Shown here in pieces: positions 1,418-25,310 of a stretch of 37,879 bases of DNA. Where the stretch lies: the IMG/VR virus record IMGVR_UViG_3300027906_000057, positions 1-37,879 of that record; one strand, given 5' to 3'. The translations under genes and the position numbers were made by a program. This stretch comes from a virus. The stretch's first letter is position 1. Every line of letters begins with the position of its first letter. A model generated the notes under the pieces. The model ran no database searches. It saw nothing but the letters and a program-made list of their open reading frames with translations, and was not told the origin of the DNA.

Positions 1418-3481
1418 GTGGCCCAGTCAAATGTAAAACTTACGGTTGATGCAAGAGGGGCAATATCTGCTTTAAACAATACGTCTTTAGCTACAAATAA
1501 ATTATCAACAGCAGCGAAAGGGACAACAGCATCTTTAGTTGGGATGTCAACGGCAGCGAAAAGTTTGGGAGCTTCATTAGCGGCGACTATGGGGCCAATT
1601 ATTGCTTTAGGTGCTGCTTTTTCAACTGTTAATAGTGCGTTGAGGGCTTTTTCAGATAGAGAAAGGGACCTAAGTATTCTTAGGCAGGGTTTAGAAAATC
1701 TAGGTGAAGGAACTGCTTCTTTAAATAAATTGCAAGAGGCTGCAAGTAAATTAGGAGACCAGACTTTATTCAATCAGGAAGAATTTACAAGAGGTTTTAA
1801 TTTGTTAACAAGTTTTAGAAAAATAGGAGTTGATTCTTATGAACGAGTAGCTCAAGCGGCTGCTGATGTTGCTCAACTTAACCAAGTAGACGTAAAAACT
1901 TCTTTTATGCAATTAGCGAAAGCATTAGAAGATCCAGAAAGGAATTTATCTGCATTAAATCGTTCTGGTATTTCTTTTACTAAGACTCAAACAGAAATGA
2001 TAAAGACATTGATGAAAGCCAATAAAACTGGTGAAGCTCATTCCCTGATCTTAGATATTGTTGGAAATGCTTATAACAAAACGGCTCAAGCGGCTGCAAA
2101 AGGTTTTGCTGGACAGGTTGATTCTTTAGGCGAGGCTTGGCGTGATTTTGGCGAAGCTTTAGGTAAAGCGGTTCTTCCTGTTTTAAGTCCAGTTGTTCAA
2201 GGGATGACAGATTTACTTAAGTTTCTTACCTCGGCTGGAGGCAAAGCAGCAGCGATTATTGCAGGTATCACTTTAGCTGTTAAAGGTTTATCTGTTGCAT
2301 TGCCTCTTTTACAAGCTCAGTTTAATGCAATAAAAGTTTCAGCACAAATTGCAACAGGTCAATTAGTTGCCACGAAAGCAACACTTGATGCAACTGCTGC
2401 TGGATTTGCTACTGCTACTGCTGCTGCTACTGCTTTTAAAATTGCTTTAGCAAAAACAGGAATTGGATTAGCTGTTATAGCTTTGGGTTATTTCGTAGCT
2501 AAAATTATTGAAGCTAGTGATGAACAAAAAAGATTTAATCAAATATTAGAGGAAGGTAGTGCTGCAACTGTAATTAAAGAAATAGAAAAAGTTACAGAAA
2601 CAATAGATAAGCTTGAGAAAAAAATTGCAAAAATAAGAGAAGCAAATGGTGAGGGCTTTTTATTAATAGATGGGACTGAGGAGTTTACAGAGCAATTAAA
2701 TACAGCAAATAAACAGTTAGACCAATTAAATGAAAGGCTTGTCATTGCTCAAGGAATAGAACTTTGGAAAGAATTTGACAAAACAAACAAAGAAATTAAA
2801 GCTCAAAACGCCGAATTAGAAAAAAGCATTGAAAGAGCCAAGTTAGGAACAGAAGAAGAGAAAAAAGCTTTTGATCTTAAAAGGAAAAGTGTTGAGTTAA
2901 TAGAAAAATATGGAGAAAAGTCGGCAGCTCCATTAATTGCAAGTTTAAAAGAAAAACAAGCACACGAAGAAACTCTTGAATTGATCAAGAAGAAACAAAC
3001 AGCAGCAGAAGAATTAAAAGAAGCGTTTAAACAAGTTGGTGATTCTATTTCAACCAACATCAGAGATAACTTAGTTGAAGCAATAAAAGGAACGAAATCA
3101 TTAGGAGACATGGCAAGAAATATTATTAATGATCTTGCTGATTCATTGATTAGGTTAGGTGTCACTCAAGCCTTGAAGTCAGGAGGTGGTAGTTTCTTCT
3201 CAGGATTAAGCTTTGCAAATGGTGGTAGTCCTCCTGTAGGAAAAGCTTCACTTGTAGGGGAGCGGGGGCCTGAATTATTCGTTCCTAATACTGCTGGAAC
3301 TATTATTCCTAATAATCAGATAAGCGGTGGAGGTTCAACAAATATAGTTATAAATGTAGATGCTTCGGGCTCCTCTGTTGAAGGTGATTCAGGGAAAGCA
3401 GAAGAGTTAGGAATTATGTTTGGTGAAGGAGTTAGATCTGTACTTATTGATGAGCTACGACCTGGAGGACTTCTAGTATAA
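1418..3481 (+). CDS. Tail tape measure protein
   Basis: A 687-residue protein that sets tail length and passes into the host at infection. The start is GTG (residues MAQSNVKLTVDARGA); no better ATG lies upstream in frame. Hydrophobic stretches near residues 277-300 and 347-365 are followed by long charged helices or coiled coil to about 545, then a Gly/Ser/Pro-rich region with GERGPELFVPNTAG and a C-terminal tail GDSGKAEELG...RPGGLLV. Using the rule of about 0.15 nm per residue, the tail would be near 100 nm. The last 35 codons are repeated at the end of the regulator at 25020-25310. Its stop overlaps the next start (TAATG). Confidence 0.93.
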   Translation: MAQSNVKLTVDARGAISALNNTSLATNKLSTAAKGTTASLVGMSTAAKSLGASLAATMGPIIALGAAFSTVNSALRAFSDRERDLSILRQGLENLGEGTASLNKLQEAASKLGDQTLFNQEEFTRGFNLLTSFRKIGVDSYERVAQAAADVAQLNQVDVKTSFMQLAKALEDPERNLSALNRSGISFTKTQTEMIKTLMKANKTGEAHSLILDIVGNAYNKTAQAAAKGFAGQVDSLGEAWRDFGEALGKAVLPVLSPVVQGMTDLLKFLTSAGGKAAAIIAGITLAVKGLSVALPLLQAQFNAIKVSAQIATGQLVATKATLDATAAGFATATAAATAFKIALAKTGIGLAVIALGYFVAKIIEASDEQKRFNQILEEGSAATVIKEIEKVTETIDKLEKKIAKIREANGEGFLLIDGTEEFTEQLNTANKQLDQLNERLVIAQGIELWKEFDKTNKEIKAQNAELEKSIERAKLGTEEEKKAFDLKRKSVELIEKYGEKSAAPLIASLKEKQAHEETLELIKKKQTAAEELKEAFKQVGDSISTNIRDNLVEAIKGTKSLGDMARNIINDLADSLIRLGVTQALKSGGGSFFSGLSFANGGSPPVGKASLVGERGPELFVPNTAGTIIPNNQISGGGSTNIVINVDASGSSVEGDSGKAEELGIMFGEGVRSVLIDELRPGGLLV

Positions 3482-10180: not shown

Positions 10181-11356
10181 ATGGCAAATCGTAAAATCTC
10201 GGAACTTACAGCCTTAACGGCTCCAGCAGCGGGTGATACCTTTGCAATTCTTGATGTAGGTGCTAGTGGCGTAGAAGTTAATAAAAAGATTACTTATGCG
10301 AATGTTTTAGGTAAAGTAAGCAACAAAAATTTGATAATTAATGGATCAGTAATAATAAGCCAACGGTATGGTACAAGTAATAAAACTATTGGCTCTAGCT
10401 CAACTTATGGCCCAGATCGAATAGCAGCAATAACACAAACAGGTAGCAGTCATACACTAGCTCAAACAGCAGATGGCCCATCTGGTTTTAAGTATTCTGC
10501 AAAAGTAACTATTGGTACTGGAGGTTCGCCATCAGCAGCTAATAAAAATTATCTTTATCAAACTATAGAAGGTAACAATGTAGCTCATCTTGGTTCTGGG
10601 ACATCTAGTGCAGAAACAGTAACATTATCTTTTTGGGTAAAATCTAGTTTAACTGGTAATTTTGGAGCAGCAATAGTAAGCGGTGCTGCAGACCATTCTT
10701 ACACCTTCCCTTATACAATTAGCTCTGCAAATACATGGGAAAAGAAAACAAAAACAATAGCACTTCCTACAAGTGGAGGAACTTGGGCGACCGATAATAG
10801 TGGTGGTTTAATGGTTATGTTTGATTTAGGTTCAGGAAGCGACTTTGAAGGTACTGCAAATCAATGGAATAGTGCTTTTGATGTTCGTGCTAGTAGTGAT
10901 GTCAAATTGATGGCAACTAATTCAGCTACTTGGTATGTAACAGGAATTCAATTAGAAGTAGGAGATTTTCCCAGTTCGTTTGAATTTATATCGTATGGCT
11001 CTGAATTACTAAGGTGTCAAAGATATTATGAACATTCTTACAACTTAGGTATATCAGTAGGGTCGAACACCAATGTAGGTGGTTATCATCAAAATATAAA
11101 TAGTGACAATAATGGGCATATTGTTTTTAGTGTTGAATATAAAGTAACTAAAAGAGACACACCTACTCAAATATTTTATACATATGGTGGTACGGCTGGA
11201 TCTTGGAATTTCAATGGAGAATCCGTTACGGCTGGAGTACAGACAGTTAATTCTAATAGAAGCAGTCAAAACAACTTAGGTGGTTATCTATCTACTGGTG
11301 CTAATTGGGATCCGTCTCTTGTATACGGACATTGGACCTCTTCTGCGGAGCTTTAA
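10181..11356 (+). CDS. Receptor-binding tail protein with jelly-roll module
   Basis: A 391-residue protein. It opens MANRKISELTALTAPAAGDTFAILD, a short N-terminal module common in cyanophage and marine phage fibres, then KNLIINGSVIISQRYGTS starts a carbohydrate-binding-like jelly-roll of about 170 residues ending WYVTGIQLEVGDFPSSFEF. The signature ISYGSELLRCQRYYE follows, and the remaining 110 residues form a variable C-terminal domain probably facing the receptor. The last three codons (GCG/GAG GAG CTT then TAA) are part of a tandem repeat that continues into the next gene. Confidence 0.82.
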   Translation: MANRKISELTALTAPAAGDTFAILDVGASGVEVNKKITYANVLGKVSNKNLIINGSVIISQRYGTSNKTIGSSSTYGPDRIAAITQTGSSHTLAQTADGPSGFKYSAKVTIGTGGSPSAANKNYLYQTIEGNNVAHLGSGTSSAETVTLSFWVKSSLTGNFGAAIVSGAADHSYTFPYTISSANTWEKKTKTIALPTSGGTWATDNSGGLMVMFDLGSGSDFEGTANQWNSAFDVRASSDVKLMATNSATWYVTGIQLEVGDFPSSFEFISYGSELLRCQRYYEHSYNLGISVGSNTNVGGYHQNINSDNNGHIVFSVEYKVTKRDTPTQIFYTYGGTAGSWNFNGESVTAGVQTVNSNRSSQNNLGGYLSTGANWDPSLVYGHWTSSAEL

Positions 11357-11461
11357 ATTATGACTTATACTTATAAACATCTAGCGGAGCTTTAAGTTAT
11401 GACTTATACTTATAAATATCTAGAGGAGCTTTAAGTTATGACTTATACTTATAAACATCTA
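11345..11461 (+). repeat. Three tandem 39-bp units spanning stop, RBS and start
   Basis: Units start at 11345, 11384 and 11423 and differ at only a few bases. Each holds GAG CTT TAA (stop), a GGAG Shine-Dalgarno element and ATG ACT TAT ACT TAT AAA. The first two units therefore encode closed 11-residue peptides (MTYTYKHLAEL and a near copy), and the third opens the real gene at 11438. Confidence 0.92.
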
Positions 11462-11888: not shown

Positions 11889-11947
11889 TAACAACTATTT
11901 GCGTTATTCTGACAAATCAGCTATTTTAAAGAAAATCATAGACAATC

Positions 11948-12118
11948 ATGTTAAACATACTTACGTCAATACTATTTAGATTTGTTACCAGTAGAGAATT
12001 GTTTAATTTTGTACTTAGAATTTTAGGAGAATTGGCAAAAAAGACTGATACACCGATAGATGATGATTGTGTAGACTTTGTTAAACAATACGGTAACAAA
12101 TATTTTGGCTCAAGATAA
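11948..12118 (+). CDS. Small hypothetical protein (56 aa)
   Basis: Reads MLNILTSILFRFVTSRELFN, then FVLRILGELAKKTDTPIDDDC and ends YGNKYFGSR. The first half is amphipathic to hydrophobic and the second half is charged. It could be membrane-associated, but the hydrophobic stretch is interrupted by Arg and Glu, so a true transmembrane helix is doubtful. A possible TTG start of the following shifted frame lies inside its last codons (12105). No family is recognised. Confidence 0.5.
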   Translation: MLNILTSILFRFVTSRELFNFVLRILGELAKKTDTPIDDDCVDFVKQYGNKYFGSR

Positions 12119-12346
12119 ATTTCTTTACATTGAAATAAAAGAACCATCTATAGAGACAAAGTTTTTTATAGAAATGCTTACTAGAGAAATTAAAAAAAAA
12201 GTGATGACATTGAGGGTGTTAAACAATTATATACAGATTTAATAAAAGATAAAATAAGACAAGACAATTTTCTCGCAAGTTTATTAGTAAAAGGCGCAGA
12301 ATTGGAAATCAACGCTAAAAAGAAAGCGGCCTTTTTGGGGCCGCTT
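12105..12346 (+). pseudogene. ORF split at a nine-A run (frameshift or broken)
   Basis: From TTG 12105 (or ATG 12174) the frame reads MAQDKFLYIEIKEPSIETKF, then MLTREIKKK at a run of nine A (12192-12200). In the zero frame it then continues VMTLRVLNNYIQI and stops at 12242. In the -1 frame it continues SDDIEGVKQLYTDLIKDKIR, then QDNFLASLLVKGAELEINAKKK, a much more protein-like helical sequence. The codons ATT AAA AAA AAA GTG contain A-AAA-AAA, the same slippery heptamer as in the G/GT gene. It may be a second programmed -1 site, or simply a one-base indel. The shifted frame stays open into the converging gene, so its true end is unclear. Confidence 0.35.
12324..12346 (-). terminator. Intrinsic terminator of the minus-strand accessory block
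   Basis: Perfect eight-base stem AAGCGGCC / GGCCGCTT around a seven-base loop, followed on the minus strand by TTCTTTTT. It lies just after the stop of the minus-strand gene at 12361 and between converging transcription units. It may also act on the plus strand, where the U-tract is weaker. Confidence 0.7.
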
Positions 12347-12360
12347 GGTTTAAAATTAAT

Positions 12361-12714
12361 CTACCATTTCTTTATACTTTTTATAATCATAACTTCTTTT
12401 GCCCTGTCACTATCGTTATGGTCTTCTAAGCTAAAAAGTTTATATTTTATTTCTATTTGATCACCTTCGCTTATAGACTCTAAAAATTCTCTTCTTTCTT
12501 CGTCATTGTCGCATTGCTTTCTAAACATTCTACATTCAGAGTTCTCTTTGCGATTATTAGGAGAATCAGGAGAAACCCCAGGAGCAAGTTCCTCCAATGA
12601 TTTTAGTTTTACACAAACACAGTATGGATAACGTTCGTCAGTATCATCGGGAAACATAAAAAAAACAGTACCACTAAGGACACCGTGGTTTATAGGTTTC
12701 ATTGGTGTAGGCAT
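12361..12714 (-). CDS. Hypothetical acidic protein (117 aa)
   Basis: Starting at ATG 12714 it reads MPTPMKPINHGVLSGTVFFM and ends KEVMIIKSIKKW; a TTG six codons upstream is a weaker start. The pattern of beta strands (GVLSGTVFFMFP, YCVCVKLKSL, GDQIEIKYKLFSL, EVMIIKSI) with a central helix could fit an OB-like or small beta-barrel fold, but no family is recognised. Two cysteines (SECRMFRKQCD) lie in the central loop. It is the last gene before the terminator at 12324-12346 and belongs to the leftward accessory block. Confidence 0.6.
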   Translation of the reverse strand: MPTPMKPINHGVLSGTVFFMFPDDTDERYPYCVCVKLKSLEELAPGVSPDSPNNRKENSECRMFRKQCDNDEERREFLESISEGDQIEIKYKLFSLEDHNDSDRAKEVMIIKSIKKW

Positions 12715-12739
12715 TAATTTAAAGTGAAACAATCATATA

Positions 12740-13890: not shown

Positions 13891-14373
13891 TTATAAGAGT
13901 TTGAGGAATTTTATCCAGCCAGCCATTTCAGGGACTTTTTCTAACAATTGATAAGCTTCTTTATCTTTACATTCTTCCCAAACCTTGTCTATAGTTTTCT
14001 TAGCTTTATAATCTAAATCTGCTTTTATTTTTTTTTGGTACAAAATTATACATTCATCTTCTACTTCTTTGTCCATTAGTTTGGAAGCTCTGTTCTTATT
14101 TTGGATTATTACCTTTGCATCTTCATCACTAATTTTCCTAGTAACCTCATTTTTACCCTGATAAGACGCAAATCCTACTAAATCCCAATAAACCCAACCA
14201 TAATTCCATTTTCTAGAAAAATCACTAATTAATTTTTCATCAAAAGAATCCCAATGCTGACCATTAGCAAAACAACAAAGTTTTTGTAATTTAAATTGAG
14301 TAATTGGAATTTGACCATTTAGTGATTTTTCAATAAATGCGTTTGCTATTCTTAGTGACCAGTATCCGTTCAT
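13891..14373 (-). CDS. Panacea-domain protein copy 3 (diverged)
   Basis: A 160-residue protein with the Panacea (DUF4065/SocA-like) fold signature: MNGYWSLRIANAFIEKSLNG, then TQFKLQKLCCFANGQHWDSF around residues 24-44, then the place of the usual KYGPV reads NYGWV. Panacea domains are antitoxin domains that neutralise many toxin types, and SocA also acts as a ClpXP adaptor. The W in place of P and an altered preceding helix suggest a changed partner surface. It follows a partner-family gene (14418-14855), shares the AACCCCCTTTAAAACC leader, and is about 45-55% like the copy at 14860 by eye. Role as antitoxin is inference from the family. Confidence 0.8.
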   Translation of the reverse strand: MNGYWSLRIANAFIEKSLNGQIPITQFKLQKLCCFANGQHWDSFDEKLISDFSRKWNYGWVYWDLVGFASYQGKNEVTRKISDEDAKVIIQNKNRASKLMDKEVEDECIILYQKKIKADLDYKAKKTIDKVWEECKDKEAYQLLEKVPEMAGWIKFLKLL

Positions 14374-14417
14374 GGTTTTAAAGGGGGTTAGGTGTTTTTG
14401 TTGTTGGCTTGATATAT

Positions 14418-14855
14418 TTAGAGGATTCCTCCAAGTGTATAAACTTGATTCAATTTTCTATCTAAATAATGAGGGATTATTACTTTTAAAGAACCATATA
14501 AAAGATCTAAATTACTTTTACTTGGATAATAAATATGTATTTTTTTCGATGCTTTATGAGATATTGATAAACAAGAAACAGTCAAGATAGGTTTATAATG
14601 AGTCTTATAAAAAACCGTAGAAAATAGTTCTCTCTCTTTCATGGTGTCAAGATTACAAGTCTCTCCATTTACAAAGCATAAACAACCTCTAAGGCCACTT
14701 AATCTTTTTTTAAAATAAAAAGCATTGTTTTTGGGGGCCTCCAATGGAAAGAGATCAATTTGATTTATTTCATAAGCATGAACAACCTTATTCTCCTTTA
14801 GATATTTCTTATACAGTTCTTGGAATTCCTGCACATAGTTTGTTTGAGTAGTCAT
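14418..14855 (-). CDS. Partner-family protein copy 3 (145 aa, diverged)
   Basis: Aligns with the proteins at 16065-16586 and 16640-17167: N-terminal YVQEFQELYKKYLKENKVVHAY, then a central CLCFVNGETCNLDTMKERELFSTVFYKTHYKPILTVSC, then IHIYYPSKSNLDLLYGSLKVIIPHY. The long middle insert of the other copies is missing. No known family is recognised. It pairs with the Panacea gene at 13891 and has the same AACCCCCTTTAAAACC leader. In toxin-antitoxin logic this family would be the candidate toxin or cognate partner, but no catalytic motif is visible, so that remains inference. Confidence 0.65.
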   Translation of the reverse strand: MTTQTNYVQEFQELYKKYLKENKVVHAYEINQIDLFPLEAPKNNAFYFKKRLSGLRGCLCFVNGETCNLDTMKERELFSTVFYKTHYKPILTVSCLSISHKASKKIHIYYPSKSNLDLLYGSLKVIIPHYLDRKLNQVYTLGGIL

Positions 14856-14859
14856 GGTT

Positions 14860-15405
14860 TTAAAGGGGGTTAGAGTTAGTAAAAGCGTCTTTTATAAGGG
14901 TTTGAGGGATTTTATTAAATCTATCCTTTTCGTAGACTAAATCCCAAGGACCATCTTTTTTATTAGTTAATTTCGTCAATTCATATGCTGTGGTGCCTTT
15001 ATGTTTCTCCCAAACCTTATCAATAGTCTTAATAGCTTTATAATCTAAATTTTCATTTAATTCCTCAATCAATATATTTATTACTCCATCTTCTATTTCT
15101 TCGTCCATTTCTTTGTAAACTCTGTTTTCGTTTTGAATAATTATCTTTACTTCTTCATTACTAATTTTTCTAGTAAACTCCTTGCTAGCCTGATAAGGCA
15201 TAAAATCTCTTAACCCCCGATAAACAGGGCCATATTTCCATGCTTCGACATAATCTTCAATTAATTGTTCATCAAAAGATTTCCAGTGCTCACCATTAGC
15301 AAAATAACAAAGTTTTTGTAATTTTAATTGAGTAATTGGCTTTTTATCCTTTAGTGATTTTTCAATAAATTCGTTTGCGATTCTTAGTGACCAGTAGTTG
15401 TTCAT
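14860..15405 (-). CDS. Panacea-domain protein copy 2 (best conserved)
   Basis: A 181-residue protein with the clearest Panacea (DUF4065) signature: KLQKLCYFANGEHWKSF at about residues 28-44 and EAWKYGPVYRGL at about 54-65. The rest is charged and helical (VKIIIQNENRVYKEMDEEIE, then YKAIKTIDKVWEKHK) and ends with a tail DGPWDLVYEKDRFNKIPQTL that is also present in the fused copy. Family knowledge: Panacea proteins are hyperpromiscuous antitoxins found on phages and prophages. The start has the AACCCCCC leader. Its ATG overlaps the stop of the upstream fusion gene. Confidence 0.85.
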   Translation of the reverse strand: MNNYWSLRIANEFIEKSLKDKKPITQLKLQKLCYFANGEHWKSFDEQLIEDYVEAWKYGPVYRGLRDFMPYQASKEFTRKISNEEVKIIIQNENRVYKEMDEEIEDGVINILIEELNENLDYKAIKTIDKVWEKHKGTTAYELTKLTNKKDGPWDLVYEKDRFNKIPQTLIKDAFTNSNPL

Positions 15406-16586
15406 GATTTTAAAGGGGGGTTAGAGTTAGTAAAATAATCTTTTATAAGAGCTTGAGGTATTTCATTATATTTATCCTCTGAGTAGACTAAATCCCAAGG
15501 CCCATCTTTTTTACGAGCTATTCTCTCTAATCCATAACCTGTTTCACGAGCTATTCTCTCTAATCCATAACGTGGAGTTTTTTTATATTCTTCCCAAATT
15601 TTTTTATATTCTTCCCAAACCTTATCTATAGTTTTCTTAGCTTTATAATCTAAACCTGTGTTTAATCTTTCCTGGAATTTATTTATTAATTCATCTTCTT
15701 CTTCTTTGTCCATTTGTTTGTAAACGTTGTAAAATTTGTTTTTGTGTTGAATAATTATCTTTACTTCTTCATTACTAATTTTTCTAGTAAGCTTTGGGGT
15801 AGAAAAAACGGGAAGACAACTAGTAATCCCTTTGTCAGTCCAACAGAATGGGTACCGTGTAAAATCATCTAAAATCTGATACTGAGGACCATATGTCCAT
15901 GCTTCGACATCATCTTCAATTAATTGTTCATCAAAAGAGGCCCAATGTAGACCATTAGCAAGATAACAAAGATCTTGTACTACCTCTGGCTCAATTGGCT
16001 TATTATCATTTAGTGATTTTTCAAGAAATGCGTTTGCTATTCTTACAGACCAGTATCCTTTCATGGTTTTAAATGGGGGGTAGGTTAATAATATTTTTAT
16101 TAAGCCTGGATGATACTGTTTCATAAAAACACTAAACGCCGCTAAACCTTCTTGATTTGGGTCAAGAATATTCATCCGCCAACCTCTATAACATACACAG
16201 GCAACAGTGTAAAATTTTTCATTATGTGTATGGAGTATTACAGGGAATATTTCTCCACCTTTCAAGTTATCAAAATCAATCGTTCCTTTTTCTATAGAAC
16301 AATCACCTGAATATCCTTCTAAACGGCAACCTCGGTCATTGTCAATCACAATCTCTGTGTCTATCTCATATTTACAGTAAGAAGAACGACCAATTAAATC
16401 TTTATTTTTACCTATAGATTTAAACCAAGAGATAGCTTCTTTTACAGTCCCTGCCATATCTTTTTCTCTCCAAGGCTTCCAAGGCTCTGCATAAGCATGA
16501 ACAACTTTATTCTTTTCTAGAGATGTCTTATACAGGTCTTCAAATTTCTGCATATAGTTCAAGGATTTTTTTGTTGATGCTGTCAT
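15402..16586 (-). CDS. Partner family fused to Panacea domain (copy 1)
   Basis: A 394-residue product. Residues 1-174 are the partner family (NYMQKFEDLYKTSLEKNKVV, then EAISWFKSIGKNKDLI, then IEKGTIDFDNLKGGEIFPV). Residues 175-394 are a Panacea protein that starts MKGYWSVRIANAFLEKSL at an internal ATG (16064). The linker is not designed protein: it is the usual AACCCCC-type leader between such genes, read through in frame as TYPPFKT. A one-base change near the end of the partner part would restore a TAA TAA stop. The Panacea part has DLCYLANGLHWASF and EAWTYGPQYQIL, plus two small tandem duplications near its end. Either a true fusion or a frameshift artefact. Confidence 0.75.
   Translation of the reverse strand: MTASTKKSLNYMQKFEDLYKTSLEKNKVVHAYAEPWKPWREKDMAGTVKEAISWFKSIGKNKDLIGRSSYCKYEIDTEIVIDNDRGCRLEGYSGDCSIEKGTIDFDNLKGGEIFPVILHTHNEKFYTVACVCYRGWRMNILDPNQEGLAAFSVFMKQYHPGLIKILLTYPPFKTMKGYWSVRIANAFLEKSLNDNKPIEPEVVQDLCYLANGLHWASFDEQLIEDDVEAWTYGPQYQILDDFTRYPFCWTDKGITSCLPVFSTPKLTRKISNEEVKIIIQHKNKFYNVYKQMDKEEEDELINKFQERLNTGLDYKAKKTIDKVWEEYKKIWEEYKKTPRYGLERIARETGYGLERIARKKDGPWDLVYSEDKYNEIPQALIKDYFTNSNPPLKS
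15513..15571 (-). repeat. 33-bp tandem duplication inside fused Panacea gene
   Basis: A 26-base identical block recurs at 15513-15538 and 15546-15571, period 33. In the protein it doubles YGLERIAR. The sister gene at 14860 has no such expansion, so the event is recent. Confidence 0.85.
15578..15619 (-). repeat. Two perfect 21-bp units inside fused Panacea gene
   Basis: Units at 15578-15598 and 15599-15619 are identical and add WEEYKKI in frame. This and the neighbouring 33-bp duplication lengthen the same linker region by whole codons. Confidence 0.88.
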
Positions 16587-16639
16587 GGTTTTAAAGGGGG
16601 TTAGTCAAAATAATGATCGTGTTGAGTAAGGTATAGTTA

Positions 16640-17167
16640 TTAAAACTTATCGTCTGGATGATACTTTTTCATAAAAACACTAAACGCCGCTAAACCTTCT
16701 TTATTTGGGTAAAAGATATAAACTGTATCTCGACATCTAGAACCTTTATATACTACAGCAACAGTGTAAATGTCTTCATTATGTTTATGGAGTATTACAG
16801 GAAATATCTCTCCCTTTTTCACGGTATCAAAATCAATCGTTCCTTTCTCTATGTAACAAAAAGACGTATAACCAGCTAAAAAAGTTTCATTATAATGTGA
16901 AAAGTCAAAGAAAAGATAGAAAGAGTTAAATGGTTCAATACCGATATATGGGTGGTTTTCGTTATCATCAAATAGAGAAGCATAGCTAATTAAATCTTTA
17001 GTTTTACATATAGATTTAAACCAAGAGATAGCTTCTTCTATAGTGTCTGCATCATCTTCACGAGGTTCTAGATAAGCATGAACAATCTTGTTTTCCTTTC
17101 GATATTTATCATGCAGCTCTTGGCATTTCTGCATATAGTTCAAGGATTTTTTTGTTGATGTTGTCAT
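16640..17167 (-). CDS. Partner-family protein copy 2 (175 aa)
   Basis: Close relative of residues 1-174 of the fusion gene: MTTSTKKSLNYMQKCQELHD, then NKIVHAY, EEAISWFKSICKTKDLISYA, IEKGTIDFDTVKKGEIFPVI, and a C-terminal IFYPNKEGLAAFSVFMKKYHPDDKF followed by TAA TAA. This copy has its own stop, unlike the fusion. It is not followed directly by a Panacea gene of its own but by the fused pair. No known family or catalytic motif is recognised; the C-terminal 60 residues are the best conserved part of the family. The leader is AACCCTTTTTTAAAACG, a weaker form of the shared motif. Confidence 0.7.
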   Translation of the reverse strand: MTTSTKKSLNYMQKCQELHDKYRKENKIVHAYLEPREDDADTIEEAISWFKSICKTKDLISYASLFDDNENHPYIGIEPFNSFYLFFDFSHYNETFLAGYTSFCYIEKGTIDFDTVKKGEIFPVILHKHNEDIYTVAVVYKGSRCRDTVYIFYPNKEGLAAFSVFMKKYHPDDKF

Positions 17168-17226: not shown

Positions 17227-17613
17227 TTATTTTCTGAAATATGAAAGAATACTTACCCAAAAATTTCTTTTCGGTGGGTATTCTACAAAAGGATCCTTAC
17301 AGGTTATTTTTATACTTAAGACCTTTTTATCATAAAAGTAATCTTGTTCTGGTTCGCCAGAAACCGTTTCAATATCTAGTCTCTCTAGATAACCTTCAAT
17401 AATAATTCGTTTATCGTTATCTTCTAGTTTTTTATACTTAAACATATTCGTATATTTAGACTCATTATATTCTGTTTTTTTTAAAGAACGATTTAATTCA
17501 ATAAATCTGTCGAAATATGTTTTATCTTTTGGGTGTATTTCAACTTCTATTGAATAATATTCACGTCTTTGCAGTTCATGTAATTGGTCAAGATAAATGT
17601 GTTTGTTTGTCAT
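17227..17613 (-). CDS. Hypothetical protein (128 aa)
   Basis: Reads MTNKHIYLDQLHELQRREYY and is a beta-rich, charged protein, with strands such as YYSIEVEIHPKD, KRIIIEGYLERLDIET and KVLSIKITCKDPF. It ends PPKRNFWVSILSYFRK. Chosen start 17613 follows the upstream stop by four bases and has GGAGG upstream, one of the few Shine-Dalgarno starts in this operon; a longer frame exists but runs into the previous gene. No family is recognised. As it lies second in the operon that carries the Panacea array, it may be part of the same system or an unrelated accessory gene. Confidence 0.6.
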   Translation of the reverse strand: MTNKHIYLDQLHELQRREYYSIEVEIHPKDKTYFDRFIELNRSLKKTEYNESKYTNMFKYKKLEDNDKRIIIEGYLERLDIETVSGEPEQDYFYDKKVLSIKITCKDPFVEYPPKRNFWVSILSYFRK

Positions 17614-17617
17614 GGTT

Positions 17618-18076
17618 CTATACCTCCTCATTAGTACATTCTGCAAAATATCTAGGACCTTTTGTTAATTGATCTAAATATTTAAAAAAGTTCTCTATTG
17701 TCATTGTGTATTTGTCTGACTTATATATTATTGCAGAACGTTCAACAGGGTTAAAAGAGCCAAAAGAGTCTATAACTTCTATGCGATCTGCATAACAAAG
17801 AAAACGAACTTTTTCAACCTTATATATTTTTGATGGGTCTTTAATTTCTACATCAAAGTATGGTTCATGTTTTGAGTCCCAAGTAACGTAAAAACATTCT
17901 TCCTCTTCACTTCTCCAAGTACTAACGTAAACTTTCTCTTTCTCTACAAGTCTCCAATATTTTCTAAATCTGATAGCAATAGTTTCTAGCTTTTGTTGAT
18001 GATCTTTAGTAAGCTTTCCAAAATGCTCTAAAAACCATTCTTTATCGGTTTTTGTTTTTGTTGATGTTGCCATCAT
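17618..18076 (-). CDS. First gene of accessory operon, hypothetical (152 aa)
   Basis: Begins MMATSTKTKTDKEWFLEHFG; the second ATG is equally possible. It has an N-terminal helical part (LTKDHQQKLETIAIRFRKYW) and a beta-rich remainder (VYVSTWRSEEEECFYVTWDS, PYFDVEIKDPSKIYKVEKVR). The start (MATSTKTKTD) resembles the starts of the partner-family genes (MTTSTKKSL), which may be common ancestry or just leader-peptide likeness. Leader AGCCCCCTTTAG precedes ATG. It is read from the promoter at 18108-18136. No function is recognised. Confidence 0.6.
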   Translation of the reverse strand: MMATSTKTKTDKEWFLEHFGKLTKDHQQKLETIAIRFRKYWRLVEKEKVYVSTWRSEEEECFYVTWDSKHEPYFDVEIKDPSKIYKVEKVRFLCYADRIEVIDSFGSFNPVERSAIIYKSDKYTMTIENFFKYLDQLTKGPRYFAECTNEEV

Positions 18077-18096
18077 TCTAAAGGGGGCTATTTAAA

Positions 18097-18109
18097 GTTG
18101 TAAAACAAC
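18097..18109. promoter_or_regulatory. Operator-like inverted repeat at accessory promoter
   Basis: GTTGT-AAA-ACAAC is a perfect inverted repeat that overlaps the end of the -10 hexamer and the expected transcription start of the leftward accessory operon. A dimeric regulator bound there would block initiation. Autoregulation is usual for toxin-antitoxin operons, but the binder is unknown. Confidence 0.45.
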
Positions 18110-18136
18110 TATAGTTAATAATAAATATTTTGTCAA
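18108..18136 (-). promoter_or_regulatory. Promoter of the Panacea accessory operon
   Basis: On the minus strand: TTGACA (18136-18131), a 17-base spacer, TATAGT (18113-18108). This is close to the sigma-70 consensus and lies 32 bases before the first start codon. It should drive the leftward genes down to about 12361. Confidence 0.75.
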
Positions 18137-18209
18137 CTTATAAAACAGATGATGAAGCAGTGGCCTTTATAGGAGTTAGACTATTCTCAAACGAAACAAC
18201 CAAACTTCA

Positions 18210-18371
18210 ATGAGTATGTATAAACCTGAGTGGCGAAAAGAAGATGAACAAAGAATGCTCAGACTAGAGCGCTTATATGTTTTAGACGGTAGACACCTAT
18301 CTGACAATCCTATGCATGGTATCTACACAGGACTTTCAGAGAAGGCCGCCGAGCTGGAAGATGGAATGTAA
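18210..18371 (+). CDS. Small hypothetical protein (53 aa)
   Basis: Reads MSMYKPEWRKEDEQRMLRLE, then RLYVLDGRHLSDNPMHGIYT and GLSEKAAELEDGM. It is charged and helical with no membrane segment. It is transcribed away from the accessory operon, followed within 40 bases by another small plus-strand gene and a terminator, so the two probably form a short transcript. No family is recognised. Confidence 0.55.
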   Translation: MSMYKPEWRKEDEQRMLRLERLYVLDGRHLSDNPMHGIYTGLSEKAAELEDGM

Positions 18372-22619: not shown

Positions 22620-22658
22620 AACTAAATGGGGTTGGATGACTCTTTGAATATACATGCC

Positions 22659-25019: not shown

Positions 25020-25310
25020 ATGGGCTCTGACACCGATCTAAAGACAATCAACACTCAGCTAACCGAAGGGCAAATTAAATGGTTAGACGAAAACAAACCG
25101 CCTGAATTTTCAAGAGCTGGTTTTATTAGATCGATCATTCGTCGTCATATAAAAATGTATGATTCGATTTGTAACGAGCCGATCGAGGAGATGGCGGAAG
25201 CATTCGTTGAAGGTGATTCAGGGAAAGCAGAAGAATTAGGATCTATCTTAGGAGCAGTACTTCAAGATGAAATTGTGAATCAGCAACGACCTGGAGGACT
25301 TCTAGCATAA
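25020..25310 (+). CDS. Ribbon-helix-helix regulator with tape-measure tail
   Basis: A 96-residue protein. Residues 7-42 look like a ribbon-helix-helix DNA-binding domain: LKTINTQLTEGQIKWLDENK then SRAGFIRSIIRRHIK. Residues 63-96 are VEGDSGKAEELGSILGAVLQ then DEIVNQQRPGGLLA, which is the C-terminal tail of a tape measure protein; the DNA matches 3377-3480 nearly base for base at both ends. So a regulator gene has been joined to a tape measure end. The stop overlaps ATG of a 12-residue remnant (MATFPLEIFINR) of the next tail gene. It stands under a rightward promoter and is a candidate for the early repressor. Confidence 0.8.
   Translation: MGSDTDLKTINTQLTEGQIKWLDENKPPEFSRAGFIRSIIRRHIKMYDSICNEPIEEMAEAFVEGDSGKAEELGSILGAVLQDEIVNQQRPGGLLA

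Follow-up and report, generated by a model that had tools for sequence, protein, structure and literature searches.

A duplicated Panacea cassette with an unmatched partner family in a virus related to Prochlorococcus phage MED4-184

How does a virus come to carry three Panacea domains beside three copies of a second protein family, and what might the set do for it? Standalone Panacea domains neutralise toxins through direct binding (PMC8832971, PMC10440598), and in multidomain PanA it is an added domain that neutralises, while Panacea may sense (PMC10440598). Viruses with antitoxins against host toxins are known or have been proposed, as for AdfB of ICP1 (PMC11481870), and the lytic cyanophage S-CREM1 has three unrelated antitoxin genes (PMC9964418). 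The locus considered here lies in a viral record of 37,879 bases, analysed over its full length (the window). A stretch of 153 bases is shared by the two ends of the record, with 151/153 identical, which marks it as a nearly complete genome with a circular map. The terminase is 50% identical to those of cyanosiphoviruses of Prochlorococcus MED4 and Synechococcus WH7803, most of the structural genes have counterparts in the same order in Prochlorococcus phage MED4-184, and on this sequence evidence the virus is a cyanosiphovirus related to MED4-184. Its early genes include those for a Rad52-type annealing protein, a PDDEXK exonuclease, a helicase and a primase-VapE protein. No integrase was recognised among the ORFs read in the window, and it is from this that we infer a lytic habit. 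Elsewhere in the genome, the tape measure gene and a small early ORF have a 3'-terminal stretch of 105 nt in common at 80% identity (3377-3481 and 25206-25310), both encoding VEGDSGKAEELG...RPGGLL; in one relative (L010) the match to that early ORF is limited to its first 41 residues. Three 39-nt tandem repeats with one ATG each (MTYTYK...) lie 3' of the tail gene (11345-11461), and the ATG of the third starts a small ORF.

The genes in question form an operon-like run on the minus strand, from about 18133 to a terminator-like hairpin at 12346-12324 (Table 1). The preliminary description had taken all Panacea and partner copies to be co-directional, which they are, and to alternate, which they do not do strictly: the actual order is partner, partner-Panacea (one ORF), Panacea, partner, Panacea. 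The extent first given to the array was also too short, as two more orphan ORFs precede the array in the operon and an HTH-like gene follows it. Within the operon no family other than Panacea and the partner has more than one copy; a reading of the ORFs at 17230 and 17621 as further partner copies was unsupported (hhalign probability 0.2%). Partner A and Panacea copy A are 44 nt apart and partner B and Panacea B are joined, and both pairs fall within the spacing (<=100 nt) of two-gene PanAT systems. A homologue of the HTH-like protein, 48% identical, occurs at another site in a related virus (L011, 3232-4056) behind the same kind of leader, and this gene may be mobile within the virus group.

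Table 1. Features of the Panacea-partner cassette, listed in the order of transcription.
Feature	Position	Strand	Remark
Promoter-like element TTGACA-17-TATAGT, then inverted repeat AGTTGTAAAACAACT	18096..18136	-	consensus match only; cassette junction at 18133
Orphan ORF, 152 aa, first cassette gene	17618..18076	-	variant leader AGCCCCCTTTAGA
Orphan ORF, 128 aa	17227..17613	-	ordinary AGGAGG leader
Partner copy C (partC), 175 aa	16640..17167	-	match to other partner copies
Fusion ORF, 394 aa: partner copy B (16586-16083) and Panacea copy B (16064-15402), in frame	15402..16586	-	
Panacea copy M, 181 aa, most canonical copy	14860..15405	-	ATG overlaps copy B stop (ATGA)
Partner copy A (partA), 145 aa, most diverged partner	14418..14855	-	
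Panacea copy A, 160 aa	13891..14373	-	eroded signature, truncated C-terminus
HTH-like protein, 302 aa	12946..13854	-	helix-turn-helix-like matches below Pfam cut-offs
Orphan ORF, 123 aa, TTG start, last cassette gene	12361..12732	-	
Terminator-like hairpin	12324..12346	-	

The three Panacea domains, first recognised by their signature, were borne out by a profile search, in which whole-protein scores against PF13274 were 39, 65.7 and 32 bits (cut-off 25.7). Copy M also matches the NCBIfam family SocA_antitoxin (E 4e-23), while the SocA equivalog (NF047745) has a cut-off of 190 bits and the best score reached was 81.9. The signature itself has been eroded to different degrees. The histidine of the LTH motif is found in 96 of 102 relatives and is replaced in the three window copies by N, P and R. 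Copy M keeps all other core residues (K of QKL, W-GPV, PW); copy B has D for the K of QKL, a position held by K in 101/102 relatives, and Q for the V of GPV; and in copy A the P of GPV has become W and the P of PW has become G. Patterns drawn from the QKL and GPV motifs served to retrieve many of the 102 relatives, which inflates the conservation counts of those motifs; the LTH column played no part in the retrieval. Neutralisation by Bartonella PanA is abolished when Y56 or H120 is substituted. By counting along the PanA of locus L045, the tyrosine of WKYGPV corresponds to Y56 and the LTH histidine stands at 117, and from this count Bartonella H120 is probably the LTH histidine. Since that residue is lost in all three copies, and more residues in two of them, ordinary PanA neutralisation may be altered here. 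Within copy B, stretches of 33 and 21 nt have recently been duplicated in tandem, each without loss of frame (15509-15619).

The second three-copy family is likewise real, with identities of 61% between partC and partB and 34% between partC and partA, and a search of the window with partC retrieves the other two copies at E 1e-44 and 4e-7. The partner sequences run from 17167 to 16643 (partC), 16586 to 16083 (partB) and 14855 to 14421 (partA). Neither single sequences nor profiles found a homologue of the family in IMG/VR, GTDB genomes, phages, plasmids, PDB, Pfam, PHROGs, NCBIfam or PADLOC, with the proviso that the scans of IMG/VR and GTDB depend on an almost exact match to a short peptide and could thus miss very distant relatives. 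Weak cyanobacterial matches were set aside, as most were short or had internal stops and the best was antisense to a histidine kinase gene. The partner has no toxin-like signature and no strongly hydrophobic segment; it is predicted to be soluble and lies upstream of Panacea, whereas the nearest Panaceas elsewhere adjoin membrane-like proteins. Structure prediction gave a mean pLDDT of 40 for partner C and 37 for the fusion, a natural stand-in for the complex, values too low for a usable model of either.

The Panacea copies arose by local duplication. In a tree of 108 rows the three window Panaceas are monophyletic (support 100/100), so they were duplicated after their common ancestor had parted from all other sampled Panaceas; together with the co-duplication of the partner family, this upholds the view of a locally duplicated cassette. 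The sister group consists of Cardiobacteriaceae and Moraxellaceae sequences (97/89) on a long stem, and a cyanobacterial source for the Panaceas is unsupported. Judged by dS (0.29-0.48 among the Panaceas, 0.43 between partB and partC, and near 1.1 from these to partA), the divergence of the copies is not recent. Differences between the pairs had been taken to fit arms-race change. The dN/dS values do not bear this out: they lie at 0.73-0.88, with 1 inside the bootstrap intervals, and at 0.5-0.6 for partA, whose interval excludes 1. No value significantly exceeds 1, and relaxed or shifted constraint would explain the signature losses just as well. All six frames have nevertheless remained open despite 139-249 inferred substitutions per pair, for which the simulated neutral chance is at most 0.0015 per pair, and every length difference between copies is a multiple of three. 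The copies are therefore coding and have been kept.

The run was also thought to sit behind a single promoter with an operator-like repeat. Both elements were seen, namely an 11/12 match to a sigma-70-like promoter at 18136-18108 and a perfect inverted repeat, AGTTGTAAAACAACT, at 18096-18110. Promoters of this class are not enriched over shuffled sequence, at 34 against 33.9 expected, and the inverted repeat, allowing up to one mismatch, is present at least once in 17 of 100 shuffles; the pairing of promoter and operator is thus only plausible. The leader AACCCCCTTTAAAACC had been read as a common feature of the array genes, and it does recur there (six occurrences at <=3 mismatches against 0.5 expected by chance), yet it does not mark the array specifically. 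Within the window it also precedes another gene, at 22633. In related viruses all 15 matches to AACCC..TTT..ATG precede an ORF of 50 aa or more (mean of 1.65 in shuffles), and these matches span about five gene families; sites of the form AACCC(C)nTTTnAA..ATG are found at window 22633, L011 3218 and 4094, L021 764, L023 21 and 1349, and L029 15110. From this distribution it has the look of a clade-wide gene-start motif that lacks a Shine-Dalgarno sequence and acts as a translation or early-transcript leader. A mobile or cassette element was considered for it and dropped, since its 14 exact IMG/VR matches, one per contig, are by our own estimate about as many as a 16-mer should have by chance in a collection of this size, and since the motif belongs to gene starts throughout the clade.

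At three junctions the upstream frame continues into the leader, so that the number of C's decides whether the two products are separate or fused. The join of partner B and Panacea B depends on one extra C in a run of six (about 16071-16078), where five would yield an ATGA overlap. Such an overlap is present at the junction of Panacea B with Panacea M, and at that of Panacea M with partner A one C fewer would fuse both. The partner B-Panacea B fusion may be real, the product of a slippery site or a sequencing error.

The surroundings suggest how the cassette reached its place. Nucleotide homology to two relatives (L008 and L009) begins sharply at 18133, inside a small gene of theirs, the C-terminal remnant of which persists at 18133-18210 beside the promoter-like site. 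In those relatives that can be read past the junction, MED4-184 included, this segment is a conserved block coding for membrane-like, signal-peptide-like and other proteins. Profiles of the block found no member in the window, save that one short protein has a distant copy at 11942-12115. The G+C content of the cassette is about 30% against 36-40%, and a search for Panacea in 20 related viral records, of which many are fragments and one is MED4-184, and in three further isolates found none, nor did related-loci scans of IMG/VR find a close relative; the cassette is known from a single genome. The sharp junction, the absence of the block, the low G+C and the Panacea-free relatives are read most simply, at the level of sequence, as an acquisition that displaced the conserved block at 12.3-18.1 kb.

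Known systems offer partial likenesses. As in PanAT (Panacea/DUF4065; Kurata 2022, Ernits 2023), PF13274 is matched over the cut-off, a small co-directional neighbour lies within 100 nt, phages are among the carriers and the order of toxin and antitoxin varies. On the other hand, the neighbour family of the window is soluble and matched nowhere, including beside the other Panaceas seen; there are three copies in one virus; the LTH histidine is lost in every copy; and the gene run exceeds three genes, a length that the published PanAT screen excluded. The SocAB system of Caulobacter, in which the antitoxin is a ClpXP adaptor, is echoed in the match of copy M to SocA_antitoxin, but at 81.9 versus 190 bits this copy is not SocA itself, and the partner matches no named family, SocB included. 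Tandem arrangements occur in a Deltaproteobacteria MAG (L101), with two Panacea genes each directly followed by a small gene, and in a Bacteroidota MAG (L125), with two Panaceas flanking one small gene. In these, as beside the nearest Panaceas (L051 and L075), the small proteins are mostly hydrophobic and membrane-like; those of L101 and L125 lie 3' of Panacea, whereas the window partners are soluble and 5'. T4 Dmd, ICP1 AdfB and the S-CREM1 antitoxins are antitoxin-like genes in lytic viruses, possibly directed against host toxins, but belong to families unrelated to those of the window and form no duplicated array.

In the explanation proposed, an accessory cassette with its own promoter-like site would have taken the place of the usual segment at 12.3-18.1 kb, and a Panacea of SocA/PanA type and a small soluble partner family would have multiplied together through local duplication. 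Each Panacea would be a protein-binding neutraliser and form a type II-like pair with the partner next to it; the diverged copies may bind host toxins too, and the cassette would thereby control host growth or blunt toxin-based defence during infection. Here we infer Panacea-partner binding, partner toxicity or activity, the timing of expression and the benefit to the virus. Functional pairing in a virus-owned, duplicated PanA-type cassette is favoured because the partner is soluble, lies upstream and was multiplied with Panacea, whereas other genes of the operon were not; that a partner and a Panacea share an ORF, and that tandem pairs of PanA and small genes exist elsewhere (L101, L125), also speaks for it, as do the profile matches, the monophyly, the open frames, the toxin binding known for standalone Panacea and the viral antitoxin precedents. 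The partner has neither a homologue nor a toxin-like signature nor a strongly hydrophobic segment, the LTH histidine is gone in all three Panaceas and more signature residues in two, dN/dS near 1 also fits weak constraint, and structure prediction gave no usable model, all of which count against it, and pairing is accordingly a tentative first choice, possible rather than probable.

Next in rank, and rather unlikely, is a pure anti-toxin role, in which the Panaceas would be virus-borne decoys against toxins of host TA systems and the partner an unrelated duplicated viral gene sharing the operon. The relatives are cyanophages, an integrase was not seen in the ORFs read, S-CREM1 (with three antitoxin genes), T4 Dmd and ICP1 AdfB are precedents, and duplicated, diverging copies would suit several host toxins. 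However, close antitoxin relatives are sparse in cyanobacteria, where 15 of 386 genomes match the window Panacea profile at E<=1e-6, and the partner has been multiplied alongside Panacea and joined with it in one ORF. Less likely again is that the copies are drifting accessory cargo, redundant leftovers under weak selection that are simply tolerated. The dN/dS intervals spanning 1 would fit, as would signature losses that differ per copy, the truncated C-terminus of copy A, the tandem repeats of copy B and the presence of the cassette in one genome only; yet six frames are open where neutral change would almost surely have given stops, and dN/dS of partA lies below 1 with an interval excluding it.

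The partner might also be a Panacea-associated N-terminal neutralising domain, like PAD1, with Panacea as the sensor, the fusion functional and the split copies acting in trans. In the fusion it is indeed N-terminal to Panacea, as are PAD1 and ZBD in multidomain PanA (PMC10440598), and in the phage family phrog_10390 (299 positions) the Panacea lies in the C-terminal half; but the fusion hangs on one homopolymer C, the other two partner copies are separate genes, and the partner resembles no known domain, which makes this reading improbable and the last of the four. A bolder conjecture, to which we give little credence, is that the window holds a Panacea subfamily without the usual neutralisation residue, paired with a new soluble family, in which the length of the leader C-run would switch pairs between separate and fused and so provide variable binders against host defence.

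The cassette is probably a virus-owned toxin-neutralising or host-control module and not a new kind of system. Panacea cassettes as a kind are already known; what appears from the comparisons to set this one apart is the unmatched partner family, the eroded signature and an array in a group in which no other Panacea was found. The replaced block, kept as far as the marine Prochlorococcus phage MED4-184, allows one to ask what its role is and how this virus copes without it. If the pairs bind, the Panacea array, duplicated and diverging in what appears to be a lytic cyanophage, would be a viral route to a panel of toxin binders, and Panacea would have a new partner in this family.
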